A program made the translations under genes and the position numbers. The notes below the pieces were generated by a model. That model made no database searches. It worked only from the letters and a program-made list of their open reading frames with translations, and was not told the DNA's origin. Shown here in pieces: positions 24,472 through 41,920 of a DNA stretch of 64,000 nt (position 1 is the stretch's first letter; the number at the start of each line of letters is the position of its first letter). Origin of the DNA: Gammaproteobacteria bacterium. Lineage in GTDB: Bacteria > Pseudomonadota > Gammaproteobacteria > Steroidobacterales > Woeseiaceae. The stretch spans positions 58,003 through 122,002 of the forward strand of contig JAHZJK010000024.1 of assembly GCA_022600955.1 (NCBI GenBank), given 5' to 3'.

Positions 24472-24575
24472 CAACCTAGACTCAATTTCGGCAGATATTA
24501 CCTGAATTAGCTTGCTGTACCGGCAGCGAACTCGCGCCAGAATAATGAATCAAGACTGTCGATCCCTGGGAACTT

Positions 24576-24594
24576 CTGATATCTTACTGATATC
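24576..24594 (+). promoter_or_regulatory. Tandem CTGATATC operator candidate before the methyltransferase
   Basis: CTGATATC occurs at 24576-24583 and again at 24587-24594, an 11-base period that places both on one face of the helix, 32 bases before the methyltransferase start. Ribbon-helix-helix proteins typically bind such tandem sites, and the encoded enzyme begins with such a domain. Confidence 0.45.
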
Positions 24595-24626
24595 AACTAT
24601 TCCCAGCGGATAAAGGAAGATTCAGA

Positions 24627-25868: not shown

Positions 25869-25870
25869 CC

Positions 25871-26287
25871 GTGGACGTACACGACAAAGAAACCAGGTCC
25901 TACAACATGTCGCGGATTAAAGGCCGCGACACCAAGCCAGAAATACTGGTACGACAGGAGTGCCATAGGCAAGGCCTGCGCTTTCGTCTACACAGGAAAG
26001 ATCTTCCTGGAAAGCCAGATCTTGTATTTTCAAAATACAAGACTGTAATTTTCGTACACGGCTGCTATTGGCACTCGCACGATTGTAAGTACGGGGCAGT
26101 CGTTCCAAAAACCAATACGGAGTTCTGGCAAACAAAGCGCTCGGCCACTGTCGACAGAGACGAGCGCAAGTCACTCGAGCTTCAGTACTGCGGCTGGCGT
26201 GTACTAGTGTATTGGGAGTGCGAAGTCCGAGACCGCGATGCACTTGCAGAGAGGATCCAGAACGATTTCCTACGGCAAAGTGACTAG
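25871..26287 (+). CDS. vsr: Very short patch repair endonuclease Vsr
   Basis: Vsr nicks 5' of the T in T:G mismatches that arise when 5-methylcytosine deaminates within the partner methyltransferase's site. The protein begins VDVHDKETRSYNMSRIKGRDT, matching the E. coli Vsr start (DVHDKATRSKNM). It also shows LPGKPDLVFSKYKTVIFVHGCYWHSHDC, with the catalytic Asp, the metal/zinc-binding His and Cys residues, and the conserved end GWRVLVYWECEVRD. The ORF track starts at a TTG (25835), but homology favours GTG 25871, giving 138 residues, the usual length. It lies 2 bases after the methyltransferase stop and converges on the restriction endonuclease, overlapping its end by 18 bases. Confidence 0.93.
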   Translation: MDVHDKETRSYNMSRIKGRDTKPEILVRQECHRQGLRFRLHRKDLPGKPDLVFSKYKTVIFVHGCYWHSHDCKYGAVVPKTNTEFWQTKRSATVDRDERKSLELQYCGWRVLVYWECEVRDRDALAERIQNDFLRQSD

Positions 26288-27631
26288 CTGAACTTCTCTG
26301 TAGAGATGGCTAAGGCACTCGGCGAGCCTTGACGTGTTGATACGCCATTGTGGCCGTACCTTAGCCTCGCCACTGGCGTAAATCGTATGCGCGGGATCGA
26401 AATACACTTCACCAGAATGGATCGTTCGCAACAATCGCCAGATATCTGTTCCCTCACAGATGAATACATCAGCGAGGAATCTGTAATCGTGATCATGGCC
26501 ATCGTCACCTTCGTGCGGACGCCGTTCGCGGGCGACGTAAGCCGCGGATGAATGTTTCTTGTTCCAACTATCGGCGAGCTTCTTGAAGCTCCACCCGGAG
26601 ATGACCTCTCCAGTTTCAACTTTCCGTATTGAAACTTGGATATCATTGGTATCCGCCGAAAAAGAACCCGCCGCTGCATCATAGCCATCGACAGTCAGTT
26701 CGCAGCCAGTTGCGGGGTTCACTCGCCCAGACCGATGGACGCCTGTGAATACGGTTCTTCCATCGTTTGCTTGCCCAGGTCGACCATACTTCGCCATGAA
26801 ATCTCGAAAAGGATTGTCACCGCCATATCCGGTATCGGCGGTTGGGGTCATGAGCGAAATTTTGCCCTTTGAGTACGTCTTGATCTCGTAGCCATGCTTG
26901 TCCGGCGCATGATCAGCATTGGCGGGAACTCCAAGTATCGCCTCAAGAGTGTAGCCACCGCCTTGGTTGCCCCGAAATGGAATCGGCCCGCTTTCGCGTG
27001 GCTTCAAGATTATCGATGGATGCCAACCTGCATGATGCGCAGCAGCGAGGTCACTCAGCAGTAATTCCGTTGGACTAGAACCAGCCGCGCCGAGGAAAGT
27101 GAGAACGCGTAACGTTGGAAGCGCTCGGAGTTCTGGAAGGTCAGGAAATACACTAACAAGCTCGTCTTCCGCTTCGGTAATTACGAACCCGATAGTTCGG
27201 CCGGTATTCGATATTCCTAGCAGCAGAATTCGAACACCGTATTGTGCTTGGTTGTTGCGGCGCAGTGCATCTGGTGGCTCATCGCACCCGCGCATGAATC
27301 CAGAGAATCGAATCTCAGGATACTGAAAGTAGTCGATGATTCGCGCGTGCGGCGCGTCGTGAAGACTGCCATTTCTGTCCAGCCATGCCAGATCGATCTG
27401 CGCCTCGACCTTCGGCTTACCTTGTGACGACTTCCGTTTCTCTGTGCTCTCGCTTGGCGACCTCGCAACGATGGCTGCCGGGAAAAGGTTAGTCGCGCCA
27501 TCAAGCCCGCTGCCTAAGTAAATCTGGTTCTTCTCGTTATCTTGTTTCGGCGCCAACTGTTTGACATACAGCTGCGTCACGCCGTGTCGCGCGAAGAGGT
27601 CTTGTAACTCATCAACGGATCGAACTCCCAC
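26270..27631 (-). CDS. MvaI/BcnI-family type II restriction endonuclease
   Basis: A 453-residue protein, minus strand, convergent with Vsr. The C-terminal half matches MvaI/BcnI-type endonucleases: GGGYTLEAILGVPANAD, then the active-site-type segment HGYEIKTYSKGKISLMTP, with Glu-x-Lys of a PD-(D/E)XK nuclease. The N-terminal ~200 residues are an extra region (QLYVKQLAPKQDNEKNQIYLGSG) common in the longer members of the family. Known members recognise CCWGG or CCSGG, sites that match Dcm-type methylation and Vsr repair. The exact site here is a prediction only. Divergent from the GHKL operon, with the 27632-27897 gap as shared promoter region. Confidence 0.88.
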   Translation of the reverse strand: MGVRSVDELQDLFARHGVTQLYVKQLAPKQDNEKNQIYLGSGLDGATNLFPAAIVARSPSESTEKRKSSQGKPKVEAQIDLAWLDRNGSLHDAPHARIIDYFQYPEIRFSGFMRGCDEPPDALRRNNQAQYGVRILLLGISNTGRTIGFVITEAEDELVSVFPDLPELRALPTLRVLTFLGAAGSSPTELLLSDLAAAHHAGWHPSIILKPRESGPIPFRGNQGGGYTLEAILGVPANADHAPDKHGYEIKTYSKGKISLMTPTADTGYGGDNPFRDFMAKYGRPGQANDGRTVFTGVHRSGRVNPATGCELTVDGYDAAAGSFSADTNDIQVSIRKVETGEVISGWSFKKLADSWNKKHSSAAYVARERRPHEGDDGHDHDYRFLADVFICEGTDIWRLLRTIHSGEVYFDPAHTIYASGEAKVRPQWRINTSRLAECLSHLYREVQLVTLP

Positions 27632-27897
27632 GTCGGGATCATGCCCGAGATATACAGTCCACTCCAGAAAGCGAGAGTCTTACGGTGATCTATTTCACTA
27701 GCAAGACGCAACATTCCCGTAGCTTCGAAAGTCGCTGTATGAGGCTACTACCGATGATAGTTGACACATTACGAAAATATGTGAAATAAGATCGCGAAAT
27801 TAGTCGGCTAAGATATGTAATATATCTAACATATATTGAATATATTTCTCATAAGTGTTAATTTTCCTTCACAAGATTCGCAATGCAGGTATGTTCC
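27632..27897. promoter_or_regulatory. Divergent AT-rich promoter region with two palindromes
   Basis: This gap separates the endonuclease (minus) from the GHKL operon (plus). It holds TTGACA at 27761-27766 and two neighbouring palindromes, AGATAT-GTAAT-ATATCT (27811-27827) and ATATATT-G-AATATAT (27831-27845), in a strongly AT-rich block. These look like operators of a dimeric regulator. No single -10 box stands out. Confidence 0.45.
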
Positions 27898-28149
27898 ATG
27901 GCCTCAAAGAGAACAAAATTCGTTCAGCTCGCTGAAAAGCGTGTCAACAACACGCTAAATAATTTGAGACTAATAGGAAATCTCTCAAATTCAGCAAGCT
28001 ACGAATACACCCAGAAGGATGTCGACAAGATCTTTCGCGCCGTAACGCGAGCAGTGAATGATGCTAGGTCACGCTTTAACTCTACCGGTGGCGGTTCCAG
28101 CACTACCTTTCGTCTTGATGAGTCGACGAACCGGGGAGAAGACAAATGA
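27898..28149 (+). CDS. Small helical protein, first gene of the GHKL operon
   Basis: An 83-residue protein from the ATG at 27898 (88 residues from the ORF-track start at 27883). It starts ASKRTKFVQLAEKRVNNTL, then NLRLIGNLSNSASYEYTQKDVDKIFRAVTRAV. The pattern 'F-x-x-LAEKRVN...IRLIGNLSN...YEYT...V-x-x-IF-x-A' recurs in small proteins encoded before larger modification or defence genes in other bacteria (recollection, not checked). It is probably a helical adaptor. The stop overlaps the ATPase start in ATGA, so translation is coupled. No catalytic residues are visible. Confidence 0.65.
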   Translation: MASKRTKFVQLAEKRVNNTLNNLRLIGNLSNSASYEYTQKDVDKIFRAVTRAVNDARSRFNSTGGGSSTTFRLDESTNRGEDK

Positions 28150-30041
28150 GCGTCCAATGGATTTTTGATCCTGCTCCGCCCAGCGGCAAAAGGCGCGGAG
28201 GAAACAGCGCCGAATATGGTTTCGAAGGTCAGATCGACACGTTGGTGCGCGAAGTCGTACAGAATTCCTTGGACGCTCGAATTTCCGACGCCAAACCTGT
28301 GGATGTCGTCTTTCGATTAGTTGAGCTGGACGGTGACTATTTTGGCGCATTCATGTCAGCAATCTCATGGGACAGCCTAATCGACAACCTTTTAGCAGTT
28401 CCTGACGAACGAGGAGGTCATTCAATCAGAGCGGCAGTTGACCTGCTCGAACAAAACCAAAGCGTGCGGCTACTCGTTGTCGAGGATCGCGGTACCAAAG
28501 GACTGAAAGGAGCGGAACAGAGACAGAGCGACACGGAAAAGAATAGCTACTGCGCATTGGTGAGAGACGAACTGTATAGCGACAAGGATGACCCGGATGC
28601 CGGAGGAAGCTTCGGCTTGGGGAAATCATTACTCTGGGCGTATTCGTCAATAAAGGTCGTCCTATTCTCGTCCTCTCCCGAAGGGGGGAAAGACGGAGAC
28701 GCCGGACTTCGGTTTGTGGGTCGGACATCATTGCCTTACCACGAAACTGAAGAAGACGGCCCTGTGACTGGCGATGGGTGGCTCGGTGTAGAAAGAAACT
28801 TGGAAACCGGATGGAAACGAGCGGAATCAATTTGGGGGGAATCCGCTAGTCAAATCACAACCGATTGCTCATGTTCGAGGAAAGATGACGACCTTGGGCT
28901 GAGCGCGGTAATTGTTGGTCTGTCGGAGCCTGGTGAGCGTGACAGAGAGCCAGAGGAGGTCGCCGATTCCATAGTCGAAGCCGGGCTCGAATCATTCTGG
29001 CCCGCAATTGTGAGTGACCAACTAACCATAACAGTACAAATCGAACGAAACGAAGAAGTCCAAAGAAAGTCAGTAGTTGATCCGGAAAATACCGAGCGCT
29101 ACCGGCCGGCCGTGACCTTGTATAAGGACTTTCATGCCGGCAATGTCGAAGAACAAGAACGGCTCGAAACCGCTGGCGGTCAAGCCATCAGGTGGGTCGA
29201 CATCGAAATCCCAGAAAGAACGGGGAAGGATCCGCACCCTGCGGAAACTGGTCACGTTCCCGTACTCGTCCGACTGCTGAATGACGATGAAGGTTTTGAT
29301 GAGATCGCCGATAGGGTCTTTCGATTCAGGCGGCCCGGAATGGTCGTGAGAAAAAGCCAGCAGTCCAATCTTTCAATTACAGCGCGCCCTTACGTTGCGG
29401 TTGTCCCAGCTGGGCTCGCCGGCGGAGATACGGAGACATTTAGAAGAATCGAGACCTTTCTGCGAGCGGCCGAGCCGCCTGAACACAACGAATGGACACA
29501 CAATACGCGCAGCATCAAAGAGTCTTACCAGACATGGGGCTGCAGGAAGAAACTGCAGTCCTTCGACTACGCAGTTATTGAGGCAATTCGGTCTCTAATA
29601 GCAAAACCCGAAAAGAAAGGTGGGGAACTGCCGAAAGCAATCATGAGACATCTTAGATTCGGGCATTCAGGCGGTGGGGGTCAACAGCGATTCATTTCGA
29701 TTACACAGGAACGCGCATCACCAGAAGATGGGTCCTGGAAATTCAGCGCGCGATGTCGCCGAATACGTCCGGAAGACAAGCCGTGGACAATACTGGTGAA
29801 ATTTCATTACGCGGTCGACGGTGGTGGAAGCGACGACCTGCATGCGATTAAAGAAATCAGCGCGGCTAACGCGTCCAATATTTCGGTCGTAAACGGTGTG
29901 GGTTGCCTCGAGATTCCTGCGGACGTGAACAAAGTGGAATTCACGGGGACAACCGATTCAACCAAACTACCCGCTATAGGAACACGCTCCGCGGTCCGTT
30001 TGCGGGTTGACGGAAAATCCGGAGTAAAAAACGATGCCTGA
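28146..30041 (+). CDS. GHKL (MutL/Hsp90-like) ATPase, core of a four-gene operon
   Basis: A 631-residue protein whose first ~180 residues hold the GHKL/Bergerat ATP site: N box VREVVQNSLDAR (about 34-45), G1-type LVVEDRGTKGL (about 108-118) and G2-type GGSFGLGKSLLWAYS (about 152-167). The remainder (transducer-like middle, then PVLVRLLNDDEGFDEIADRVFRFRRPG and a C-terminal beta domain) is not a family I recognise. GHKL ATPases clamp around clients or DNA on ATP binding; MutL-like and MORC-like members occur in defence systems. It overlaps the small upstream gene by 4 bp and the downstream gene by 8 bp. Histidine-kinase function is unlikely, as no phosphorylated His box or receiver partner is present. 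Confidence 0.82.
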   Translation: MSVQWIFDPAPPSGKRRGGNSAEYGFEGQIDTLVREVVQNSLDARISDAKPVDVVFRLVELDGDYFGAFMSAISWDSLIDNLLAVPDERGGHSIRAAVDLLEQNQSVRLLVVEDRGTKGLKGAEQRQSDTEKNSYCALVRDELYSDKDDPDAGGSFGLGKSLLWAYSSIKVVLFSSSPEGGKDGDAGLRFVGRTSLPYHETEEDGPVTGDGWLGVERNLETGWKRAESIWGESASQITTDCSCSRKDDDLGLSAVIVGLSEPGERDREPEEVADSIVEAGLESFWPAIVSDQLTITVQIERNEEVQRKSVVDPENTERYRPAVTLYKDFHAGNVEEQERLETAGGQAIRWVDIEIPERTGKDPHPAETGHVPVLVRLLNDDEGFDEIADRVFRFRRPGMVVRKSQQSNLSITARPYVAVVPAGLAGGDTETFRRIETFLRAAEPPEHNEWTHNTRSIKESYQTWGCRKKLQSFDYAVIEAIRSLIAKPEKKGGELPKAIMRHLRFGHSGGGGQQRFISITQERASPEDGSWKFSARCRRIRPEDKPWTILVKFHYAVDGGGSDDLHAIKEISAANASNISVVNGVGCLEIPADVNKVEFTGTTDSTKLPAIGTRSAVRLRVDGKSGVKNDA

Positions 30042-31020
30042 CGCCACCTTCCTTCCTTACAAAACCGCACCGGATTCCTTAGCAGTCAATATCGTAGGTG
30101 TTTCAATCGACGGTGAATCGAAGGATATCGGCGAGATAGTGGACCATTCGGCGTATCAAATTCAGATTAGTGGTGTGGACGATTGGGTCCGTACCGATCT
30201 GGAGATCGAAGTGTCGGACCCGAACGCAGAATTGCCACCAGTTCTCAGCCACGAAGAGAGCGTTGACGACGCAATCGATGTCTATGTGACTCTGAAAGGC
30301 GGCAAAGGCCGTACACGATCCGGCTTGAAGCTGACGCCCAGTGGAAACAGTGCATGGAGCGGCAACATACAGATTGTGCGCGACAATCAACTTGGCTCGT
30401 TGGATCTCGAGGCGGTAGCTGTAAGGCGGACGAGAGGTGAACCGGACATTGGACTGGCAAGCTGGGTCGGTGAGCGGGTCGCATGGTCAAAGCGATGGAT
30501 GACATACATCGACGACAAGCCGCTGATGCCGGGAGGCGCTATTTCAGGAGAGTGGCGAGATTTCGAGAATGATGACAGCGAGGAATTAAGGCAGCGCAGT
30601 GATTGCGCTTGGTATCTCAATCTTTCGGACCCCGATAAGCCCAAACTGTATCTAAACGAGGGAATAGACCGCCTCAAGGGGGCGCTTGAAGCTCCAGCGG
30701 TAAGAGGTCGACCTGCAGCAGTTCGAGACGTAATTGCCCAGTCAATTCTTCAATCCGCGCTCATCGCGCTATGTGTCGAGGCAATATCCGGAGCAGATGA
30801 ACCAAAGGTCGAGGATCTCGACGGCTGGCGCAAGAGCCTACTGGTTGCAATGGGTAAACTGGCAGATGACAGTCAATCACCAGAGCTGGTCGTCGAAGGC
30901 TGGCTAGAGGCCTGGCAACAGGACAGCAAGAACGTCATTGCCGGAATAACTACTGCTGTCCAACGTCACCTGGGGATGCCCGCAACCGCAACTCGCTTGG
31001 TTAGAGCGATGGAGTCCTAG
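30034..31020 (+). CDS. Unknown protein of the GHKL operon (328 residues)
   Basis: A soluble 328-residue protein. Residues about 15-160 are beta-rich (SLAVNIVGVSIDG, WVRTDLEIEVSD, WSGNIQIVRDNQLGSLDLEAVAVRR), suggesting an Ig-like or jelly-roll domain. The C-terminal ~130 residues are helical (VRDVIAQSILQSALIALCVEAI, ELVVEGWLEAWQQD). GGAG nine bases upstream supports the ATG, which lies within the end of the ATPase gene. No catalytic motif is visible and I do not recognise the family. Tight coupling on both sides means it very likely works in complex with the ATPase. Confidence 0.72.
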   Translation: MPDATFLPYKTAPDSLAVNIVGVSIDGESKDIGEIVDHSAYQIQISGVDDWVRTDLEIEVSDPNAELPPVLSHEESVDDAIDVYVTLKGGKGRTRSGLKLTPSGNSAWSGNIQIVRDNQLGSLDLEAVAVRRTRGEPDIGLASWVGERVAWSKRWMTYIDDKPLMPGGAISGEWRDFENDDSEELRQRSDCAWYLNLSDPDKPKLYLNEGIDRLKGALEAPAVRGRPAAVRDVIAQSILQSALIALCVEAISGADEPKVEDLDGWRKSLLVAMGKLADDSQSPELVVEGWLEAWQQDSKNVIAGITTAVQRHLGMPATATRLVRAMES

Positions 31021-31022
31021 CT

Positions 31023-31721
31023 ATGTCACACGTCAAGAGGATTAAAGATCACGTCGCACTTGCGTTGGACGTTGAGTTCCTTTCAGCCGATGACCCTAGT
31101 GGCTTGTTAATGCTTGACGCAGAGTCAGATCTTGAGGGCGTAGCAGCAAGAACCGACATCGCGCGGCTCGACAATTTTGTCGCTGAGACAATTAGTAGCC
31201 ACGAGAGGTATGACACGGCGATGGATAAGAATGTAGCGATCGATCTACATAAGTGTCTTGCCTTGTCGAGACGACAAGCTGCCGATCGGCGGCTCTGGGC
31301 TTGGCTGTGTTGCATAAAGTACCCAGAATTTGTCGCGTATAGGTGGAAACCAAGAGTTGCCGGGGAACACGAAGGATTAAGGTCTCCCGCTCGCTTTATT
31401 GGGGACAATGTACGAAATACGTTTGCTCGTCTATGGTGGGCGGCGGAACTCACCGTAGTCAACGGCACCGATTATTCTTTAACCGAAGAGTTGCTGGCGC
31501 TGGATCGATTTCAGGATGGCTATGAGGCGATGTTTGGACGAGCTTTTTGCCAGTATCCTGATGCACTACGCGCTTTTATCCAAACTGCCGGCCAGAAGCC
31601 GCAAAAAGTGATTCGCGAGACGTCAAAAGAGTTCTGCTATCTGATGACAACGCTTGTACTAGAGACGATGACCAGCGAGCAACTATCCGAAGTTCTCGCC
31701 GACATCAGCGAAAAAGTCTAA
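31023..31721 (+). CDS. DUF6339-like protein of the GHKL operon
   Basis: A 232-residue soluble, mostly helical protein. The segment VAIDLHKCLALSRRQAADRRLWAWLCCIKYPEFVAYRW resembles the core of DUF6339 proteins (a His/Lys-containing helix, 'L-x-x-RQA-(A/S)-D-x-RLWA-x-L' and a terminal RW), which I know only as uncharacterised proteins beside defence genes. That assignment is from memory and should be checked. It begins 2 bases after the previous stop with GGAG upstream and ends the operon; about 180 bases then separate it from the HTH gene. Confidence 0.7.
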   Translation: MSHVKRIKDHVALALDVEFLSADDPSGLLMLDAESDLEGVAARTDIARLDNFVAETISSHERYDTAMDKNVAIDLHKCLALSRRQAADRRLWAWLCCIKYPEFVAYRWKPRVAGEHEGLRSPARFIGDNVRNTFARLWWAAELTVVNGTDYSLTEELLALDRFQDGYEAMFGRAFCQYPDALRAFIQTAGQKPQKVIRETSKEFCYLMTTLVLETMTSEQLSEVLADISEKV

Positions 31722-31898
31722 CTGCTCTAAGACTAGCATCTCGGGGCAGCTACCGTCTCTCCCATATGCTAAAGGTCAGTCGAGAAAGTCATCGTCTGAT
31801 ACAACACTGGGCGAATGCTTTAGAGGGGGTTACACACATTCAGGTTCGCCTCAAAATCGAATCGTCGCTAACAAACAGGATTCGACAGGAGATAAAAT

Positions 31899-32105
31899 AT
31901 GTACCAGCCCGCTAAGAAGTACCTAACAGCCGCCGACGCAGCAAGCTACGTTGGCTACACAACCAACACGCTTGCGCAGTACCGTTGCCGCAGGTTAGGT
32001 CCCAGCTACATGAAGGCGAGGGGCCGCGTGCTCTATGCAGTCGAAGACTTGGATAACTGGGTAGAGAGTCACGCCAGGATCGAAATTCCATCAGCACAAG
32101 CGTAG
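31899..32105 (+). CDS. Excisionase/AlpA-like helix-turn-helix protein
   Basis: A 68-residue protein of MerR-like HTH_17 type: YLTAADAASYVGYTTNTLAQYRCRRLGPSY, followed by the wing VLYAVEDLDNWVES. AGGAG lies 8 bases before the ATG, a strong ribosome site. Such proteins act as excisionases or as regulators of integrase and replication genes in prophages and integrative elements. It precedes the primase/helicase and lies in the same element as the tyrosine recombinase, so it may direct excision. It sits far from the integrase gene (about 8.5 kb), which is less typical for a dedicated excisionase. Confidence 0.82.
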   Translation: MYQPAKKYLTAADAASYVGYTTNTLAQYRCRRLGPSYMKARGRVLYAVEDLDNWVESHARIEIPSAQA

Positions 32106-32160
32106 TTTGAGGGTTGACATCGATTGAGCTGCTTTGCACGATTATGAACAGGCAAATTAA

Positions 32161-32188
32161 AAGGCCCGACGACCAGACGTCAGGCCTT
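32161..32188. terminator. Hairpin between the HTH and primase genes
   Basis: AAGGCC-C-GACG, the loop ACCAGA and CGTC-A-GGCCTT form a 10-bp stem with one mismatch. Read on the minus strand it is followed by TTTTAATTT, as in an intrinsic terminator; on the plus strand no T-tract follows. It may protect this region from antisense transcription or attenuate the plus transcript. Confidence 0.4.
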
Positions 32189-32375
32189 CAGGAGAACAGA
32201 GAACACAGCAGCAACCACACCACATAGCCTCTTAAGCGTCGACTGAGCCTTGCCACACAGTCAACAGAAAATATTGTAGCGCGGTGTTTAAGAGAGATAG
32301 AACCATCAAATCATAGGGCAATTAGGCGGGCGTCCATGAAGGGGTCAATACGTACAGGTTCAAGGACCGAGACGA

Positions 32376-34403
32376 ATGACCTCTTATACCAAAGACCATC
32401 CAATACCCCTCAAAGCGCTTGCCGCCATCAAGCCGCAATTCAATCCACTCCGGCCACTGTTCAAAGCGGGATGGCCTACAGTTCCGCTGCACAGATCGCA
32501 CACCGTCAAGACTATGCAAGGCAAAACGATACGCCTTGGCAAAGTGCCACTCGAGTCCAATTGGCCGAGCCGCAGGGCACAAGACGAAGAACAGGCGCGA
32601 ATCAGCTGCGAAGTGAGTGGCCACAATACTGGCATCGCCCTCGGTCGCAAGATCGGCGACCAGTACCTTTGTGCGTACGACATAGATCAACAAAACCTGC
32701 CGAACGGCCTCGACGACTTCCTGAAGCTCGTCCCCGCAATAGCAAAGCAGCTGGATGTCGAGCTCGAAGATCTCGTGATTCACCAGTCCGGTAACGACGG
32801 CTTGCATATCTTCTTCCTCTCAAGCGAACCCGACTTGCAGGGCCATATTGAAATCGACGGCATCAAGGTCGAGCTGAAGTCTAAAGGTCAGCAAGTCGTT
32901 GCGCCCGGCTCTGTCCATCCCGACAGTGGCCGGCTTTATCAGATCCATCCTGGGTCCGCGAAGCACGAAGAGCTGCCAAGTGCGCCGCAAAGCCTTATCG
33001 AGCAATTCAGGAAGCCGTCGTGTACGCACACTGACAATCAGATCATTCCGCCAAGCCGTCTCGGATGGATGGCGGAGCAAATCGCTTTAGCGGTTTACGA
33101 TGGCATTGATGTTTTTGAGGGATATGACGATTGGATACGGGGCGGCATGGCCTTCCATTCGGCATCAGGCGGCGAGGATTACGGTCTGGAGGCATGGATC
33201 GCGTGTTCGCATGAAGGGGAGCACGACCACTGTCTCCATAAGTGGCGCAGCTTTGGCGATGGTGCCGTCACTGAGAAAACGCTGAACCACTATCTTGCGA
33301 ATGCAGGCGTGAAGCCGAGCGATGCTCCGAAGCTCACCGCTGATGAGGTCGCCGAGTACATCGCGCATGATTTTGCCGACTTATCTGACGATGAGATCGC
33401 AGCACCTAAACTCAAAAAGCCAAAGAGGAAGCTCTACAGCCTGAATGAGCTCGTCAATCTGCCGGAACCTGAGTGGCTCGTAGATCACGCGATTCCCAAA
33501 AACGGACTGGTTGTCTTGTACGGCCCGCCGAAGTCTGCCAAGACGTTTCTAGCTCTTGATATGGCACTCAGCATGGGCTCTGGGCAGGAGCAGATGCACG
33601 GTTTCGCAATGAAACCCGGTCGTGTGCTCTATGTGCTCGCCGAAGGCGGCGCATCGATGATGGGTAATCGTGCTCGCGCATGGATGCAAGTGAAAGCGGT
33701 TGACGAAGCCGACCTCCAGGTATTCCCGTTCGGTATTACTCTCTCAAGCCGCAAGTCTGTTGATGAGTTGCTTGATCTGGCTGGTACTATATGGGATCTA
33801 GTTGTCGTCGATACATTGGCGCGTTGTATGGATGGCGATGAGAACTCCGCGAAAGATATGGCTCTGGCTATCAAAGGTGGCGATTACATCCGCGAAAAAA
33901 CCGGTGCTGCCGTTCTGCTCGTTCATCACAGTGGCAAGGATCAGAGCAAGGGATTGAGGGGGTCGACCGCTTTGCTGGGCGCCGTCGATGCAACGATCAA
34001 GATGAGGCCACAAGGTACTATGGGCGGGTTCGAGCTGTCGGTGCCAGAGTTGCGTCATGGTGAGCCACCTGAACCGAAGTGGCTCCGTCTCCAATCTACT
34101 GGTGATTCCGCTGTGTTGGTCGCAGGGACTGCACCAGAAAAAACAAAGACGGGATCAGCTGCCGAAATTCTCGAATTCATTGCGCGGATGATCGCAGACG
34201 GAACCTCACGCAAAGAGGTCGCTGACGAGATCGCAATTCAGTTTGGCTTCACGGACAGGACAGCAAGGCGGCGGATCGTCAATTACATTCCCTCTGGCAA
34301 AGAGAACGCAGCCCAATCAGACGGAATGGCAATTTGGCGTGAAGCTGACATCACTTCGAGTAGCCCAAAAGCAGAAGTCTTGCGTGTTCAGACAACGTTC
34401 TAG
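32376..34403 (+). CDS. Primase-polymerase/RepA-like helicase replication protein
   Basis: A 675-residue replication protein of integrative elements. Residues about 20-210 resemble a bifunctional primase/polymerase (TGIALGRKIGDQYLCAYDIDQ with the metal-binding DxD, then NDGLHIFFLS and VELKSKGQQVVAPGSVHP). About 228-310 resemble PriCT-2 (YDDWIRGGMAFHSAS). About 375-560 form an AAA/RepA helicase: Walker A LYGPPKSAKTFLALDMALS, Walker B-like LVVVDTLARCMDGDEN, and AVLLVHHSGKD. A helix-turn-helix end (TSRKEVADEIAIQFGFTDRTARRR) follows. It should prime and unwind element DNA after excision. The stop is 10 bases from the end of the convergent GIY-YIG gene. The CGGACA-repeat region, a possible origin, lies 1 kb downstream. 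Confidence 0.85.
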   Translation: MTSYTKDHPIPLKALAAIKPQFNPLRPLFKAGWPTVPLHRSHTVKTMQGKTIRLGKVPLESNWPSRRAQDEEQARISCEVSGHNTGIALGRKIGDQYLCAYDIDQQNLPNGLDDFLKLVPAIAKQLDVELEDLVIHQSGNDGLHIFFLSSEPDLQGHIEIDGIKVELKSKGQQVVAPGSVHPDSGRLYQIHPGSAKHEELPSAPQSLIEQFRKPSCTHTDNQIIPPSRLGWMAEQIALAVYDGIDVFEGYDDWIRGGMAFHSASGGEDYGLEAWIACSHEGEHDHCLHKWRSFGDGAVTEKTLNHYLANAGVKPSDAPKLTADEVAEYIAHDFADLSDDEIAAPKLKKPKRKLYSLNELVNLPEPEWLVDHAIPKNGLVVLYGPPKSAKTFLALDMALSMGSGQEQMHGFAMKPGRVLYVLAEGGASMMGNRARAWMQVKAVDEADLQVFPFGITLSSRKSVDELLDLAGTIWDLVVVDTLARCMDGDENSAKDMALAIKGGDYIREKTGAAVLLVHHSGKDQSKGLRGSTALLGAVDATIKMRPQGTMGGFELSVPELRHGEPPEPKWLRLQSTGDSAVLVAGTAPEKTKTGSAAEILEFIARMIADGTSRKEVADEIAIQFGFTDRTARRRIVNYIPSGKENAAQSDGMAIWREADITSSSPKAEVLRVQTTF

Positions 34404-34413
34404 CGAACCACTA

Positions 34414-35319
34414 TTAGCTTGGATCTCCTTCCATAGTTTCTGAATGCCTCTTCTCAGCCATAGCGATTTGGCGAACCATCGAGTAGTGCAGTTCTTTGAA
34501 TGCTCGCTCAGCTCTGTCTATGTCCATCTCGATCAGACCGTCGTCGTCCGTCGTCGGATTTCCCAACAGACCGAAAATTAAAGTCTCGGCAAGCTCTGGT
34601 TCCTCCACGGAGCGATAGCGTTGGATTTCCCATTCGTTCCAAATGTCGTCCGAGTCGTCGAGATGTTCCAATTCACCACGCACCGTTACGACTCTTATGA
34701 AACCTAGCTTTAGTGGGCTAACCAAAAGGCACAAAACACCAACATCAAGATTCTCCCTGATCTCTTCTGGGGTCCTTGCGCCTTGGCCGCAATGCGGACA
34801 GCCCTTGCCTTCTGCCACTTCATTGGGCACGGTCCGCCACTCATGGCCTTGGCTACATCGGAAGTTCGACTTTCCGTACTTGCTTCGCACGTGGCTCACA
34901 AGAACGATACCGCGTCCGATCAGCCGTTTCTTCATCCAAGCGTTATAAGCATAGACGTGATCTGGTTGAGGCTTCGACTTCGGTCGTACCCCAACCTTCC
35001 TAGCAGCGCTCAACCCTGCCTGAACTGTTTCCCACGACATCGTCTTGATCTCGACCCTGCTTCTAAATGGGAATAGTGAAAATGGTGTAGCGGCCCAGAA
35101 TGCCGATTCGGCCAAATATGGATCAGGAACTGCATGATATTCCTTAAGCACCCACGTCTGTCCGGTTTCCTTGACCTCGAGGCCAGCTGCTTTGGTGAAA
35201 TCGCTGTTGTGTTCGGCTAATCGTTTCTTGGGCTCGCGCGTGGTTATCCCGATCTTGTACAGGTCGGGATCAGACGGATGTTCAAGCACATAAATGTAGC
35301 CCGGCTTAATAGAGTTCAT
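34414..35319 (-). CDS. GIY-YIG nuclease-family protein with central zinc ribbon
   Basis: A 301-residue protein. The N-terminus (GYIYVLEHPSDPDLYKIGITTREPKKRLAEHN) is a GIY-YIG domain of the T5orf172/MUG113 kind, with the conserved Gly-Tyr-Ile-Tyr and a catalytic-type Arg; the Glu lies farther on (YLAESAFW). A middle segment FRCSQGHEWRTVPNEVAEGKGCPHCG has four zinc ligands. The C-terminal part (LKLGFIRVVTV, then WEIQRYRSVEEPELAETLIFGLL) reads like a second, diverged GIY-YIG fold. It may cut or bind DNA during element transfer or defence. It is divergent from the repeat-rich region and converges on the primase gene. No strong SD. Confidence 0.78.
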   Translation of the reverse strand: MNSIKPGYIYVLEHPSDPDLYKIGITTREPKKRLAEHNSDFTKAAGLEVKETGQTWVLKEYHAVPDPYLAESAFWAATPFSLFPFRSRVEIKTMSWETVQAGLSAARKVGVRPKSKPQPDHVYAYNAWMKKRLIGRGIVLVSHVRSKYGKSNFRCSQGHEWRTVPNEVAEGKGCPHCGQGARTPEEIRENLDVGVLCLLVSPLKLGFIRVVTVRGELEHLDDSDDIWNEWEIQRYRSVEEPELAETLIFGLLGNPTTDDDGLIEMDIDRAERAFKELHYSMVRQIAMAEKRHSETMEGDPS

Positions 35320-35352
35320 ATACGCCCATTACTCTATAACGAATCCTCGCAA

Positions 35353-35570
35353 CGGACACATGCGTCTTTATAGAGACGCAATGTCGTGTCCAATTGCATG
35401 CCACTCATCGGACAATCAACGGACAATGATTTGTAACGTATTGATTGGAAAGAGCGGACACTGTCCGGCGGCTTGGGTCCAATGTGTCCAATGCATCGGA
35501 CAGAAGCATCGGACATGACTATCTCCGAGGCAACTCGCGACCGAAGCACTCCCCCCCCTTATTCTGTCCG
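35353..35570. repeat. CGGACA iteron-like cluster, possible element origin
   Basis: Within 220 bases CGGACA occurs six times (35353, 35409, 35420, 35455, 35497, 35510) and its complement TGTCCG twice (35462, 35565); three of the copies share CATCGGACA. GTGTCCAAT also occurs twice. A 7-bp hairpin, TGCGTCT-N6-AGACGCA (35361-35380), lies at the left edge. Clustered short repeats near a primase/helicase gene are typical of replication origins; an operator array for the flanking genes is the alternative. The whole gap 35320-35856 has no convincing gene. Confidence 0.5.
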
Positions 35571-35856
35571 AAACTGTGCCCAGCACTGTGCTCGTTTGAA
35601 GGAAAAACTCCCAGAGGGCTTATGTTCTTTGCCTTCTCAGTAGCCGACACGCGGATTGAGCATTAGGTTGCGTGCCTTCGGTCTCACCTGGCACTCAGTA
35701 TCGGCTTCGGAGTCTTCGACCCTGATATCCCAGCACAGAGATCAATGAATGCGACCCGGGTGGGCTGGGTATCCCATTGAATCGCATACTAAGACTTGAC
35801 GGTCAGAGTGCTCGAGAGTACTCTAAGAGGCCTCGCGAGCACTCGGACTGTACATT

Positions 35857-36264
35857 ATGAAGATTGAAATATCGAACCAAACGTTCAAAAGGCTTCAGCA
35901 GCATGCTGTGCCACTAAAAGATTCACCGGAGGACGTGATTGTAAAATTACTCAGCTCTTTTGAGACCAGTGGACGGGCGAAGCAAGAAAAGCCCATTCTA
36001 CTGGACGAGTATCGCCCAGAGAGCATGAGGTCAATTCCACGACGGGTGTCAGGATTTGCTGGCGAGCTATGGGAGCTGGTCATTAAACCGCTCCCAGAAG
36101 AATTTTCGCTTCCCGATGTCTACCGCCACCTCGACCCTGTTCGAGAAAGAAGGCCCCACGTCAAGGAGCTCGAAGCATCGGCTAGGGCCGCCCTTCAAAC
36201 ACTCAGAGATGCAGGATACATAGAGTTCATGGACAACCGCGGGCAGTACCGGCGTCTGCAGTAG
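35857..36264 (+). CDS. SeqA-N/ribbon-helix-helix-like DNA-binding protein
   Basis: A 135-residue protein. The start IEISNQTFKRLQQHAVPLKDSPEDVIVKLL is built like the N-terminal ribbon-helix-helix domain of SeqA-type proteins (beta strand, then two helices, with 'D-(S/T)-x-x-D-V-(I/L)'). The C-terminal half (KELEASARAALQTLRDAGYIEFMDNRGQYRRL) resembles the small winged helix seen at the end of DpnI-like and other restriction proteins. The combination suggests a DNA-binding regulator, possibly of the CGGACA repeat region that ends 290 bases upstream. No SD is visible before the ATG. Exact family not recognised. Confidence 0.65.
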   Translation: MKIEISNQTFKRLQQHAVPLKDSPEDVIVKLLSSFETSGRAKQEKPILLDEYRPESMRSIPRRVSGFAGELWELVIKPLPEEFSLPDVYRHLDPVRERRPHVKELEASARAALQTLRDAGYIEFMDNRGQYRRLQ

Positions 36265-36340
36265 CCGCCCGTCGTGGTTTGCAGGCTTACACCCTCTGCG
36301 CATGGATTCGGGAGACAGTTAACATTTAAGCGAGATATAT

Positions 36341-36793
36341 ATGTCCGAATACAAACTTGCACAAGGAATAATAGCGCTCTCGGAGTCCAATACTTGGGAT
36401 CGGGCCAAACTAGAGTGGTCGCTCGATGATGTCTACGAAGCAGAAGAGCCGGAGACCTGTCTTTGTGGGCATTTTCCGATCATCGAAATATGCGTACTTC
36501 GCAATACAAAAAACCAAAACCGCACAATCGTTGGAAACTGTTGCGTAAAGAAATTCATTGGGCTTCCATCGGATAAGATCTTTCAAGCAGTTAAGCGTGT
36601 TAGAAAGGACAACACTAAATCGCTAAATGCTGAAGCAATCGAGCATGCACATAAGAAAAAATGGATCAATGACTGGGAGCGGGACTTCTACTTAGACATC
36701 ATGCGGAAGCGAAAGCTCTCGCTCAGGCAGCAGAACAAGAAGAAACAAATAAACGATAAGTTAGCGAAAAACATGAAGCGCAAAAGCACGTAG
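36341..36793 (+). CDS. Cysteine-containing hypothetical protein, island-borne
   Basis: A 150-residue soluble, basic protein. Its centre holds four cysteines in the arrangement ETCLCGHFPIIEICVLRN...TIVGNCCVKKFIG, which suggests a metal site or a compact zinc-ribbon-like fold; the C-terminus is Lys-rich and helical (RKRKLSLRQQNKKKQINDKL). I recognise the motif 'C-x-CG...I-x-x-x-C...VGN-x-CVKKF' as recurring in hypothetical proteins of mobile elements, but no function is known to me. The neighbouring genes point one way, with 76 bases to the SeqA-like gene. Confidence 0.65.
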   Translation: MSEYKLAQGIIALSESNTWDRAKLEWSLDDVYEAEEPETCLCGHFPIIEICVLRNTKNQNRTIVGNCCVKKFIGLPSDKIFQAVKRVRKDNTKSLNAEAIEHAHKKKWINDWERDFYLDIMRKRKLSLRQQNKKKQINDKLAKNMKRKST

Positions 36794-36900
36794 CTAGGCG
36801 GCACCATCTGTATGTGTATCGTGCCGTATTGTCGCCATTAGATAGAGTACCGCGCGCACGCGGAGGGCGCAGAATCTGCACGGTTTACAGAAAGGAATCT

Positions 36901-37068
36901 ATGAAGCCAGGACTCAGGTGCCGTACTAAAGATCTTCCCGACCTTGCTTCTCGCTACGCCTGCGAAGACATCGAGGTGCTAGGGTTTCGACCGGTCACGC
37001 GGCGTCAGGAAACGCAAATTTGGCTACGACAACCGGCGACTCGGTTAGATGTCGTTGGGATACAATAG
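36901..37068 (+). CDS. Possible small protein (55 residues)
   Basis: From the ATG at 36901, preceded by AAGGA with a 4-base spacer, a 55-residue basic peptide is encoded (KPGLRCRTKDLPDLASRYAC...). No domain or homologue comes to mind. The ribosome site is the only support; it may be a chance ORF. Confidence 0.25.
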   Translation: MKPGLRCRTKDLPDLASRYACEDIEVLGFRPVTRRQETQIWLRQPATRLDVVGIQ

Positions 37069-37094
37069 GGTCCTGCAATTGACCCATAGAGAAT

Positions 37095-38168
37095 ATGACC
37101 ATAGTCGAAGGCAAAGTCGAGACTCTCAAGGAGCTAAATAGGGCCTTGCGCAGGAGCGGAGTATCGAGATTCAACTCGGTAGGTGAACTTACAAAATTTC
37201 AACGAGAATTCGAGACCGAGAAAAGTCTACTTCCAGAACGGATAGAGCAAGCCGTAGCGAAAGAGATCCATGACTCGCAAGCTACACTTAATAAGGCGCA
37301 GGAGGCTCATAAGGAGTTAAGAAAACAAGTCCGTGCCGATCAAGAACAAAAGATCCTCCAACTAAAAGAAGGAGTGGCGCGGGCTAGAAGGAAGGGCGCT
37401 GAGCGTTCTGTGTTCAGGTTCTTCTTCTCGCTCAGAGCCTCTTCGCTTTCCAGAAAAGCAGCCCGCCTGGAACGCAATCTGAAAAAGACCGTTGAGAAAA
37501 AGACTTGCGGGTTAAAGAAGACGGTCGCAAGACAAAGCGCCGATGTCGACAATCTGAGAAAGAACAAAGAGTCGCTGACCTCGCAGCGCTACGAACTCTC
37601 TCTTCGGGATCTAAACCATACGAAGGAGGTTGTCGATGGCCTTTACACTCTGGTTGCGGGAGCAATAGGCGAGACCTCTGTTGTTCGTGCTTTGCGAGAG
37701 TTGTCTGACGACTACTACTTAATCAACGATTTTTCAGTAAAGTTCAATCCGCCCATCTACAACAAGGCGGAAAGTGACAGGATCTACAGCGTCCAGATCG
37801 ATCACCTTCTGATCGGAAGATCAGGGATATTTCTTCTGGAAACCAAAAACTGGAGCAGGTCTTCGGTACAGAACCTTGACCTGAGGTCGCCGGTTGAGCA
37901 GGTAAAGAGAACGGGTTTCGCTCTTTTTGTGATGTTGAATAGCGACGCAGGTGAGAAGAGCCTTAAGCTTGCGCGACATCATTGGGGCGCCAAGAAAATC
38001 CCGATTAGAAACGTCATCGTGATGACCAATGAGAAGCCTCGGGAAGAATTCAAGTACGTGAAGGTCCTTTCCCTGAGTGAGCTAGTTGGATATATCGAGT
38101 ACTTTAATCAGACATTTAGCGACGACGAAGTCAGAATTATTTTCGAGTTTCTCAAGAAAAAGAGTTAG
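37095..38168 (+). CDS. NERD-domain (nuclease-related) protein with coiled coil
   Basis: A 357-residue protein. Residues about 15-195 are a long charged coiled coil (LNKAQEAHKELRKQVRADQEQKI), interrupted by a short FRFFFSLRASSL segment. The NERD domain follows (about 200-320): GAIGETSVVRALREL, DYYLINDFS, VQIDHLLIGRSGIFLLETKNWS, with the Asp and Glu-x-Lys expected of this PD-(D/E)XK relative. NERD proteins are thought to act on DNA and are frequent in mobile elements and defence islands. It stands alone in orientation with the next two genes, 500 bases before the 212-residue gene. Confidence 0.8.
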   Translation: MTIVEGKVETLKELNRALRRSGVSRFNSVGELTKFQREFETEKSLLPERIEQAVAKEIHDSQATLNKAQEAHKELRKQVRADQEQKILQLKEGVARARRKGAERSVFRFFFSLRASSLSRKAARLERNLKKTVEKKTCGLKKTVARQSADVDNLRKNKESLTSQRYELSLRDLNHTKEVVDGLYTLVAGAIGETSVVRALRELSDDYYLINDFSVKFNPPIYNKAESDRIYSVQIDHLLIGRSGIFLLETKNWSRSSVQNLDLRSPVEQVKRTGFALFVMLNSDAGEKSLKLARHHWGAKKIPIRNVIVMTNEKPREEFKYVKVLSLSELVGYIEYFNQTFSDDEVRIIFEFLKKKS

Positions 38169-38669
38169 TTGAGCGCAGCGTAGGCGCCGCACCCGCCGTC
38201 CTCGCCTCGCGCTCGCGCTGCGTCACAAGAAACGGGCCGATACTGTGCCACGAGCGCTGCTAAAGAACCCAATTAGTGCGTCGAAAGGATTGCCTGCCTT
38301 TGTTCTCGATGTTCCGATACGCGGACTACTAATTCGCTGTGCGTAGTTTTGGGGCGTGAGCTTCCGCGCGGTTCCGCAGCGATGGGCCCTGAATCTTCAT
38401 CGAAACGTCGATTCCCGCACGATCTGGGCTGGCTGGTGAGGCCAGGTAAGCCTTCTGAAGCAAGAATGCGAACAAACATCTCCCGTTCGCGCGCGCACGC
38501 GCGTAGGCCGCACAAACCGCACAGTTTGTTCGTGACCAAAATGGCTTACCTAAGCCGTTCCTGCTTGAACCAAATGCGAGACAAGCAGATTTTGTTCAAT
38601 TCCCGTTGACAGTTCGTTCTGTTTATACCAATCTTTGTTCCAAGTTGTTTCATAGAGAGGAGCAAGACA
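38169..38669. other. 500-base gap without a clear gene
   Basis: No supported ORF. An 18-base alternating pyrimidine-purine run (38488-38505, CGCGCGCGCACGCGCGTA) could adopt Z-DNA. TTGACA at 38606-38611 is a -35 candidate for the following gene, without a good -10 box. Confidence 0.4.
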
Positions 38670-39308
38670 ATGACGAACGTATACGGAACACCTGAGAAGG
38701 CTCAAAGAAAGAAACGTTTGTTCCAAATAGGAATGGAGACACTTGAGGCCCACGGGTACAAGATAGAGAGGGTTTCTGGGTCCGGAAAGTCCAGCGTTCG
38801 TCGAATAACGAAAGGTGGCGAGAGCAAGATCGTGACTATCCGAACTACTCAAGATCAAGCGATAGCTTTTCCGCGGCTCCAGGACGACAGTGGTTGGAAG
38901 ACGCTCGACGAAGTTCAAATGGTCATCGCAGTCTCGGTAGACGACAAGAAAGATCCGAAAAACGGGTTGGTCCATTTCTTGGACGGCGATGATATGCGTG
39001 ACCGATTCAATCGGGCCTACAAGGCTAGAATCGATGCCGGCCGCTCAATCCCCTTGGGGCGAGGGGTATGGTTGGGTCTCTATCGAAATGAAGAAGACGG
39101 TGACAACGTTCGCTTTGTTGGCGCAGGTGCTGGATTAGAAAATAAGCCGGTCGCCACCGTTCCCCTAGAACCAATTGATGCTGTCGATTGGGAAGGGAAA
39201 AAAGGTCAGGTGGCGGCAAAAGGTCTGACCATTTCGGAAGCCAAGCATCTACTAGCAATCTCCCTAGGTGTCGATGAGGAGAGCATAAAGATCGTTGTCG
39301 AAGCATGA
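38670..39308 (+). CDS. Unknown protein, first of a nuclease-like gene pair
   Basis: A 212-residue soluble protein, ATG preceded by GAGGAG. An alpha/beta N-terminal part (RLFQIGMETLEAHGYKIERV...SKIVTIRTTQDQAIAFPR...VQMVIAVSVDD) has the strand order of a restriction-endonuclease-like or Mrr-like fold, but no clear PD-(D/E)XK triad. It ends with ISEAKHLLAISLGVDEESIKIVVEA, a segment that resembles an alpha/beta DNA-interacting tail. The next gene either overlaps this one by 14 bases or begins 43 bases later. Family not recognised. Pairing suggests that the two products act together. Confidence 0.7.
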   Translation: MTNVYGTPEKAQRKKRLFQIGMETLEAHGYKIERVSGSGKSSVRRITKGGESKIVTIRTTQDQAIAFPRLQDDSGWKTLDEVQMVIAVSVDDKKDPKNGLVHFLDGDDMRDRFNRAYKARIDAGRSIPLGRGVWLGLYRNEEDGDNVRFVGAGAGLENKPVATVPLEPIDAVDWEGKKGQVAAKGLTISEAKHLLAISLGVDEESIKIVVEA

Positions 39309-39351
39309 CGACGCGTCAAATCGAGAAATCGAACTAGAAAAGAGAATATTG

Positions 39352-40614
39352 ATGAGTATCTTCTCCAAAGAAGCTGAAATGCAGGATTGGCTCGCGAAGC
39401 AGCTGGAGACCTGCGACGGTCTTGGTGATCTCATAACCAACACTGAATCAATCGACAACTTAGAGCCGAAGACTTTGGAGGAACAGAAAGTTCTTAGCAG
39501 TTACAAGGCTTGCCTGTCGGCGCTTTATCTTACAGAGGTGGTCTCCGATAACTCCAATATCTCGCTTAACAAAGGCGACAGCCTAAAACCAGATTTCGTC
39601 CTGTACTCGCCCGAGTCAGAAGGGATCGTTATCGTCGAACTAAAAAACATTCCTGGTCCCACACGGCAAGCTGGAACCGAGCTCGGTGCTTATGCAGGAG
39701 AGATCAGATCGATAATCCCATTCCTCTCCGAGGGAGACCTGTTTCACGTCATAGTATCTCCATATTGGCCAGCACTGCTTCGGCACTTTGTTTTTCATGA
39801 AATATTCTGGCATCAGAAGAATCTTATTTGTCTAGAACCAAAACGTATCGACGGCGATATTCGACTCGCGGTCAAGCCGGTAGAGGAGATCCTCGAAGCC
39901 GACACCGCAACGCGAATTAGTGCCGATCATATCGCTGGGTATCAGCTTTGCTTGTATGACAACGAACTCTACGCGGGCGGAAGCAGAGATAGATTGGATG
40001 AATTCATGCCGCAGATGAGGTCTGCACTGTCGGTCATGGCAGCAGAGGGTAATAGACAGAAAGGCCACGGTTTCGCTTTTCTTTGGAGGGATCTTTGGGA
40101 ACAGAGTCTGGCGCCTTACAGTATCTCAATGTTCAACTTCGCTCCGTTTCAGTCGATCGAGCGATTTCTTCATGGCGTCGAAAGTCTCGAGTCGCTGACT
40201 GGTATTCAACAACGCTTTATTCGACTTATGCGAGAGAACGACCCCTCTGGGCATGGACAGTCGTTTTCCAGAATTACGAAAGCTGGTATTCGGTTTCTAG
40301 ACAACGTATGCAGTCCTCGGATGGAAGGATTTATGGACTGGGATCAATTGGCAGAAATAATGCAGAATCGTTGGGATCCAATTGCCTTTCAAGGGTGGGG
40401 ATCGTTCGGCGATATATACAACGAGCGCCTGATAGAGGAGTACTCATCCGGCGACACAACCGTGGAAATGACTTGCCCCTTGTTAGGCCTACAGGTCGTG
40501 AATGAGTTGATTGATGATGATTATGAATTCATCCGTCTAAACTATATAGATTTCGACGGCCAAGATAATCTCGAATGCCTTGACGAAGTCGACGAGGAAT
40601 TTGATGCCGATTAG
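39352..40614 (+). CDS. PD-(D/E)XK nuclease-like protein, second of the pair
   Basis: From ATG 39352 the protein has 420 residues; the ORF-track start (TTG 39295) would add 19 and overlap the previous gene. Near residues 75-100, LKPDFVLYSPESEGIVIVELKN gives the Asp and Glu-x-Lys spacing of a PD-(D/E)XK nuclease, and an N-terminal helix (KEAEMQDWLAKQLE) precedes it as in many such nucleases. The remaining ~300 residues (HVIVSPYWPALLRHFVFHEIFWHQ, then a helical middle and an acidic end) are unknown. Shedu-type proteins share the isolated nuclease motif, but the rest does not obviously match. The integrase lies 26 bases beyond, on the other strand. Confidence 0.72.
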   Translation: MSIFSKEAEMQDWLAKQLETCDGLGDLITNTESIDNLEPKTLEEQKVLSSYKACLSALYLTEVVSDNSNISLNKGDSLKPDFVLYSPESEGIVIVELKNIPGPTRQAGTELGAYAGEIRSIIPFLSEGDLFHVIVSPYWPALLRHFVFHEIFWHQKNLICLEPKRIDGDIRLAVKPVEEILEADTATRISADHIAGYQLCLYDNELYAGGSRDRLDEFMPQMRSALSVMAAEGNRQKGHGFAFLWRDLWEQSLAPYSISMFNFAPFQSIERFLHGVESLESLTGIQQRFIRLMRENDPSGHGQSFSRITKAGIRFLDNVCSPRMEGFMDWDQLAEIMQNRWDPIAFQGWGSFGDIYNERLIEEYSSGDTTVEMTCPLLGLQVVNELIDDDYEFIRLNYIDFDGQDNLECLDEVDEEFDAD

Positions 40615-40640
40615 AGGGTGGCTCGCGAGGTGCTAGTCTC

Positions 40641-41771
40641 TTAATCGAAGAGTACGTAAGCCTCGGCCGCAACTAGATTTTCAATAGCCTCGGCGTATTG
40701 TCGTACATGCTCGACCAACGCATCCGGATGCGTGTAGACCTGACCGATTCCAGGAACAGCATGCGTCATCAAGAGTCGTTGCTCCATAAACGGCACGCCC
40801 GCCTTGATTGCGAGTGTTGTCCAGTTATGGCGGAGTTGATGGGTTCCGTACCCAAACCTGCGGTACCACACTGTGCTCAGCGGCCTTGAAACAGGATTGC
40901 CGGGCCATAGCCATTCGCTTGCCGAGGGCGCATCAAGATACCGTTCAAACAAGTGGGCGAGCCTCGGCCCAATCGGTAATGTCGCGCCGTTCTTCATCGT
41001 TTTCACGTGTGTTAACCGGATAGTACGCGCCTCTAGATCTATGTCTTGCCGACGCATGGCTCTAATCGATGAGGCTCTAGCGGCGGTCAAGAGTGACATC
41101 GTCCATATAGTCCGCCACATCATTTGCAATTCAACGACGTTCTTGGCGAACTCTTCCAGGTCTACTAATTCGGGTTCACGCTTGGGATTTGACGGAATCA
41201 CCACGAACTGACACGGGTTCTCCTTCATTCCTTCATCCATACGCATAGCGTGCGATAGCGTTAGACGTAGAACCCGGAGCGCACCGCTCGCCATAGTCTT
41301 GCCACGTTTCTGCAAGCGCGACTTAAGAGTACGAACGTCATCACGAGTAATGTCGCGGGGGTGAAGGTTGCGGTAGGGATAGAGCGTATTGCGTTTCTTG
41401 TTAGTCCAGTGACGCCGATAGTCATCTTCTGTCCGTTCGGCTAGGGAGCGTTCGCAGATGTGATCTTCAATGACATCAATCATCGTCAAATTCTTTGCGT
41501 TCTTGGTCTCCGCGTTAGGATCAATACCCGAACGAACTTGGGTCTGAGCTAGTGCCGCTGCCGAACGCGCCTCTTTCAGCGTCATGTCCCCTTGCTTTCC
41601 GAGGGTAACCCTAATGGTACGTACGAACCTGCCATTCCTACGAAGGTCAGTTTGATATGCCCAGGTCGTAGGTCCTTTCCTTCCGAGAGCTAGCAGCCCC
41701 TTGAAGCGGTCGTCGCGAAGAATCTTACTGGGTTGGAGCTTGGCAGCAGTAGTCTCTGTAAGTTTAGTCAT
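40641..41771 (-). CDS. int: Tyrosine recombinase (phage-type integrase) of the element
   Basis: A 376-residue integrase. The N-terminal arm-binding/DUF4102-like part (FKGLLALGRKGPTTWAYQTDLRRNG...LTLKEAR) is followed by a SAM-like core-binding domain (about 100-190) and the catalytic domain with Arg in TAARASSIRA, Lys in HVKTMKNG, HxxR in THQLRHNW, His in LMTHAVPG and the nucleophile Tyr in GQVYTHPD. It should cut at the 16-bp core shared by tRNA-Phe and 41905-41920. The gene reads into the island, with its start 134 bases from the right repeat copy. The intact catalytic set suggests it is functional. Confidence 0.95.
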   Translation of the reverse strand: MTKLTETTAAKLQPSKILRDDRFKGLLALGRKGPTTWAYQTDLRRNGRFVRTIRVTLGKQGDMTLKEARSAAALAQTQVRSGIDPNAETKNAKNLTMIDVIEDHICERSLAERTEDDYRRHWTNKKRNTLYPYRNLHPRDITRDDVRTLKSRLQKRGKTMASGALRVLRLTLSHAMRMDEGMKENPCQFVVIPSNPKREPELVDLEEFAKNVVELQMMWRTIWTMSLLTAARASSIRAMRRQDIDLEARTIRLTHVKTMKNGATLPIGPRLAHLFERYLDAPSASEWLWPGNPVSRPLSTVWYRRFGYGTHQLRHNWTTLAIKAGVPFMEQRLLMTHAVPGIGQVYTHPDALVEHVRQYAEAIENLVAAEAYVLFD

Positions 41772-41904
41772 GTGCCTTTCATCTAACGTGGATAGCTGAT
41801 ACAGCGATCAGCACCGTTCTGAAAGGCATATATTGTCGTGATAGCTCCGCTCAAGGAGCCCTCAACTCAAGTGAATACAGCTACTTATGTGATTGGCGGA
41901 GCAG

Positions 41905-41920
41905 CTGAAAATCCGCGTGT
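41905..41920 (+). repeat. Right attachment core (att)
   Basis: CTGAAAATCCGCGTGT repeats the tRNA-Phe anticodon arm exactly. The similarity continues leftward with a 4-base gap: TTGG-CG-GAGCAG here (41893-41904) versus TTGG-TA-GAGCAG in the tRNA. The copy therefore looks like a degenerate tRNA fragment left at the far junction of the element. Confidence 0.78.

Follow-up and report, generated by a model that had tools for sequence, protein, structure and literature searches.

In PICIs the origin directly follows the 3' end of rep and consists of two sets of iterons around an AT-rich region, and this rep-ori unit drives plasmid replication (PMC6092414). P4 carries 6-8 bp iterons in both orientations at two sites, ori1 and crr. 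The origin of pRN1, encoding the prim-pol/helicase ORF904, is a stem-loop just 3' of that gene (PMC4234260). Iteron origins of PLE are cut by Odn, a T5orf172 nuclease of phage ICP1 (PMC8263062). In the window (the complete 64-kb stretch of DNA that was analysed), an array of short repeats at 35353-35570 is very probably the replication origin of an integrated mobile island (approximately 21975-41920), or else its cis-acting replication site resembling P4 crr.

The island, with limits set by its att repeats only, measures 19.9 kb and is integrated in tRNA-Phe. The attL core CTGAAAATCCGCGTGT (21975-21990, plus strand) is situated within the tRNA-Phe on the anticodon-loop side, and the attR core, a 16-bp repeat of it (41905-41920, plus strand), is found just past a tyrosine integrase with an Arm-DNA-bind_3 domain (40641-41771, minus strand). 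An AlpA/excisionase-like HTH_17 protein (31899-32105, plus strand) is encoded just upstream of rep (32376-34403, plus strand). Integrase, AlpA, and rep in a 10-20 kb element at a specific att site are also the gene set of PICIs (PMC6092414), and the arm-type integrase and AlpA-like regulator are shared with P4. Unlike PICIs as presented in the available part of PMC6092414, the window Rep is a fusion of Prim-Pol and AAA_25 and no capsid or terminase family was matched by the island proteins searched. Viral contigs yielded no relatives of rep, and none of the nuclease gene that follows it. The cargo includes a C5-methylase, Vsr, and an MvaI/BcnI-family restriction enzyme (24627-27631) as well as a PDC-M33-like candidate defence system (28146-31721). 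Just within the left end, 30 bp (22089-22118) are 93% conserved at the corresponding place of a sister element (L058 8214-8243) and, judged by sequence, are possibly integrase arm sites.

Rep, the presumed initiator, combines Prim-Pol, PriCT_2, and AAA_25 domains (AAA_25 Pfam E 8e-36) with a predicted C-terminal tri-helical HTH. Its helicase domain was closest to RSF1010 RepA (IncQ) in both sequence and fold, displaying the RepA-like hexameric helicase fold with RSF1010 RepA as the top Foldseek match (E 2.8e-12) and nearest solved relative. RSF1010 differs from the island in using a distinct protein, RepC, at its 20-bp iterons and separate ssi hairpins as sites for its primase. The HTH was predicted by AlphaFold at residues 595-637 in a block with pLDDT of ~64-78, and only parts of the model were usable because its mean pLDDT was 66. 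pRN1 likewise has a Prim-Pol/helicase initiator whose C-terminal domain binds DNA, the counterpart in the island Rep being the predicted HTH; pRN1 is distinguished by its ~100-nt stem-loop, an SF3 helicase, its archaeal nature, and an iteron array not being reported (PMC4234260).

The array is contained in a 537-bp gap between an ORF ending at 35319 and an ORF starting at 35857, as anticipated by an earlier sequence-only reading that had described a gene-free gap of 540 bases. That reading's six direct and two inverted 6-mers in 220 bases were exact, with CGGACA on the plus strand at 35353, 35409, 35420, 35455, 35497, and 35510 and on the minus strand at 35462 and 35565, and the three copies it considered extended (35406, 35494, and 35507) all correspond to CATCGGACA. 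Two TGGACA copies that it had overlooked, both on the minus strand (35387 and 35485), bring the 218 bp to a total of ten YGGACA sites, of which six are on the plus and four on the minus strand. Over the whole window CGGACA was only mildly in excess (59 observed vs. 43 expected), and the signal therefore resides in its clustering. The proposed count of the 6-mer across the window gave 36.7 per kb within the array vs. 0.3-1.05 per kb in the remaining island and flanks; the frequency elsewhere in the island, named beforehand as a possible argument against the array, was at background. The cluster was the strongest of all 6-mers in the 64 kb (log10 Poisson -11.6 compared to -7.4 in the best of 60 whole-window Markov simulations). 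Chance clustering or the residue of a decayed gene could be considered given that 6-mers are short and small ORFs overlap the array, but a cluster beyond all simulations that is kept in the sister and fits the AAA_25 family rule described below leaves this explanation a negligible probability. The array is a real origin-type array.

The organisation of the array is that of P4/PICI origins. An A/T-rich spacer of 29 bp (35425-35453, 72% A+T), as A/T-rich as only 1% of the island 29-mers and a candidate melting region, parts the sites into a left set of four and a right set of six, resembling the pri-rep-ori of EcCICFT073 and the SaPIs, in which short iterons 3' of rep flank an A/T-rich stretch as two groups (PMC6092414). 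In contrast to the PICI origin as given in the available part of PMC6092414, the array is 950 bp downstream of rep with a nuclease gene between, and this distance, rather than an adjoining position, counts against an origin. The likeness to P4 includes the short iterons in both orientations and a crr that adjoins the 3' end of alpha, the primase-helicase gene, whereas P4 has GGTGAACA-like iterons at two sites and the island a single array with an AAA_25 Rep. Instead of the alpha-type Rep and type-I iterons (GGTGAACA) of a P4-type ori/crr, an AAA_25 domain and YGGACA sites were identified. Direct repeat families of at least 12 bp were absent from 35000-36000, compared to the ~17-22 bp direct repeats of classical iteron plasmids, and no DnaA box (TTWTNCACA, up to one mismatch) was detected in 35320-35856, the latter also weighing against an origin. 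The array is therefore neither a P4 ori nor an iteron origin of the classical plasmid type that depends on DnaA. An auxiliary or copy-control site akin to P4 crr, with initiation elsewhere in the island, is suggested by the pairing of ori1 and crr from the same iterons in P4, where crr is the one behind alpha; no second CGGACA cluster was found in the island and this alternative was considered rather unlikely. GC skew of the element gave no informative signal, no promoter-like site was found, and the terminator count was at chance level. Rfam returned only tRNA at gathering threshold and nothing up to E = 1 in 35300-35900, and a DNA search with the gap found no relatives among phages, among plasmids, or in 106 further genomes of the family.

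The 7-bp hairpin previously noticed at the edge of the array (TGCGTCT/AGACGCA, 35361-35380) was confirmed as the inner part of a bipartite hairpin (35354-35391), in which TGCGTCT-TTATAG-AGACGCA with its A/T-rich centre is lengthened by an outer pair of inverted iterons, GGACAC/GTGTCC, overlooked in that reading, with a short 3' bulge. DNA folding gave z = -4.5 for the bipartite hairpin and none of 200 shuffles was equally stable. An iteron-flanked hairpin is a difference from PICIs, for which it is unmentioned in the available part of PMC6092414. Further inverted pairs are CGGACA-C-TGTCCG (35455-35467) and the near-perfect palindrome TGTCCAATGCATCGGACA (35485-35502).

Directly right of the array, a conserved non-coding block (35534-35705) shares 62% identity with the sister element (L002 8970-9146, E 7e-9), and its two anchor words occurred only in genomes G000 and G105 among 396 genomes. 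Folding of the block was no better than shuffles on both strands. Its variable segment (35643-35657) was, on the minus strand, identical to the anticodon region of tRNA-Phe at 14/14 bases (P 0.001), and the same block in the sister (L002 ~9087-9122) resembled, on the plus strand, that of its own tRNA-Thr (75% over 36 bases, P 0.0005); the orientation is opposite between the two, and comparison of each segment with the tRNA of the other element gave nothing. The block also contains a 20-bp near-palindrome AACTGTGCCCAGCACTGTGC (35572-35591) with an 85% match by the sister integrase gene (L058 and L059, ~22634-22653, E ~0.1), which from the letters may be a possible shared operator. A packaging site (cos/pac) or oriT formed by array and block, in place of an origin, would agree with the helper packaging sites carried by satellites and with the non-coding nature of the block. 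This is very improbable considering that the island proteins searched included no recognisable relaxase or terminase, that the linkage of the array is to rep, and that comparison with phage and plasmid DNA gave no similarity.

The array was read as an origin because dozens of related rep genes in other elements carry such clusters, usually right behind the gene. Rep relatives were sought in ~765 genomes from the same order and class, loci being picked by AAA_25 similarity to the window Rep, included with at least 300 nt of DNA 3' of rep, and scored by the position of the best 6-mer cluster. A short-repeat array beyond all 940 Markov controls was observed in 26 of the 47 distant AAA_25 rep loci, and 23 of these 26 arrays started between -120 and +60 nt of the rep stop codon (binomial 6e-27). 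The motifs were locus-specific, including GGGACA, CGGACA, GGTGAC, GGTAAC, CCGTAC, GTAAAC, and GAAGAA among others. The top two sites in a scan of P4 as positive control were crr, directly 3' of alpha, and ori1. An array behind a RepA-type gene was also present in Rhizobium phage N65 and in two records that are naturally circular, Caenibius p1 and a Klebsiella circle of 17 kb. Evidence against the origin reading came from the remaining 21 of the 47 loci, without an array by the 6-mer cluster test, and from Photobacterium plasmid p2_510 and Caulobacter phage GB2A, in which no array was found.

The Klebsiella circle is plasmid pKp_Goe_795-4 (CP018459.1), encoding an integrase, a RepA-type helicase, and capsid genes, with a GCCGCA/TGCGGC repeat array beginning 2 nt past rep; it looks like a free PICI-like satellite. 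Five distant loci (L005, L008, L013, L041, and L014) had a GGACA core in their arrays (GGGACA or CGGACA) as in the window, and their Reps were only about one third identical in the helicase domain. In favour of the origin reading, the C-terminal extensions of Rep, the part in which the HTH is predicted, were longer in array loci than in array-less loci (Mann-Whitney p = 3e-4). Covariation of motif and HTH was rejected as proof of binding, being weak and no stronger than that of motif and helicase (Mantel r 0.21 for the C-terminus vs. 0.20 for the helicase domain), which also tells against the origin reading.

The window is unusual in having a T5orf172/GIY-YIG nuclease gene (34414-35319, minus strand) between rep and the array. 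No Odn-like DNA-binding domain common to the GIY-YIG protein and Rep was found, and an Odn-like role is therefore speculation; the gene is possibly a homing gene or an anti-competitor weapon.

Only one close relative of the element was found, in a Woeseiaceae MAG record (genome G105, locus L002), with a Rep 56-58% identical and integration in tRNA-Thr. At the homologous place (L002 8758-8794) the sister has a hairpin with an inner stem of 9 bp, an A/T tetraloop, a 3-nt bulge, and an outer stem of 6 bp (z = -5.2), the same architecture as the bipartite hairpin of the window. Absence in sister elements, the second possible objection raised by the sequence-only reading, does not apply, as five CGGAC copies in 150 bp formed the densest spot of the sister's 40 kb (P ~1e-4). 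This array is weak, with exact CGGACA present only twice, and in the blind scan for 6-mers it was outranked at its locus, both points against the origin reading; as that scan missed it, the array is regarded as diverged.

The gene at 35857 (plus strand) encodes DUF7557 and DpnI_C DNA-binding domains, and directly upstream of it a 26-bp imperfect inverted repeat (35799-35851, 81% complementary, 1-nt spacer) looks like an operator or leader hairpin. A homologue of the gene was detected in none of 195 other order genomes, the sister included, and the sister likewise had no detectable homologue of the T5orf172/GIY-YIG nuclease. The array, hairpin, and block are kept in the sister without either flanking gene, and the array is therefore part of the element backbone. 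The earlier proposal of a binding array for the RHH-like 35857 protein is for the same reason disfavoured, as array and hairpin persist where this gene is missing. More generally, an element transcription factor on the CGGACA sites could control divergent promoters of the GIY-YIG gene (minus strand) and the 35857 gene (plus strand), consistent with the location of the array between divergent genes, inverted pairs resembling dimer operators, and the DNA-binding domains of the 35857 product. Such an operator array is improbable in view of the sister and of the comparable family arrays that follow rep genes whatever the neighbours. Dual use of the array for autoregulation and as an origin is possible.

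The hairpin at the array edge was compared across the family by a strict rule (four-base A/T centre, arm of 6, up to one mismatch). A/T-centred hairpins were identified in 14 of 28 array regions; the rate was 2.7% in control windows and 4.6% in shuffled sequences, and among 18 loci lacking an array only one had such a hairpin. The commonest centres were CTTTAG (7) and CTATAG (3), and the outer arms are often inverted iterons. The window hairpin, with the centre TTATAG and one wobble pair, fails the strict rule, which weighs against the origin reading, and is consequently treated as a looser member of the pattern. The recurring hairpin suggests a common initiation step, unmentioned for PICI origins in the available part of PMC6092414.

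The proposal of an origin used after excision gained support from the AAA_25 locus rule, the P4 control, the conserved position of the array in the sister element, and the circular and phage replicons in which rep is paired with an array. The anatomy of the array region also agrees with that published for the PICI and pRN1 origins. On this model AlpA and the integrase would first excise the island, the predicted C-terminal HTH of Rep would bind the YGGACA repeats, and the A/T spacer (35425-35453) and/or the iteron-flanked hairpin would open by melting or extrusion. Loading of the RepA-type AAA_25 hexameric helicase would follow, with priming of synthesis by the Prim-Pol domain. A broader and more tentative suggestion, to which we give somewhat less than even probability, is that a two-part origin class is common to the AAA_25 (RepA-type) initiators found in satellites, phages, and phage-plasmids, in which a locus-specific short-iteron array accompanies an A/T-centred (CTTTAG/CTATAG) hairpin between inverted iterons. 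The hairpin would act as a strand-specific helicase-loading or primase-start site, and in the island the T5orf172 gene would have settled between rep and origin, reminiscent of ICP1 Odn.

The array provides a concrete origin candidate for an undescribed island carrying defence genes (restriction-modification and a candidate defence system). It also yields a simple rule, that a short-repeat array should be sought behind the AAA_25 rep gene, which predicts origins and Rep recognition sites in many uncharacterised satellites, phages, and phage-plasmids.
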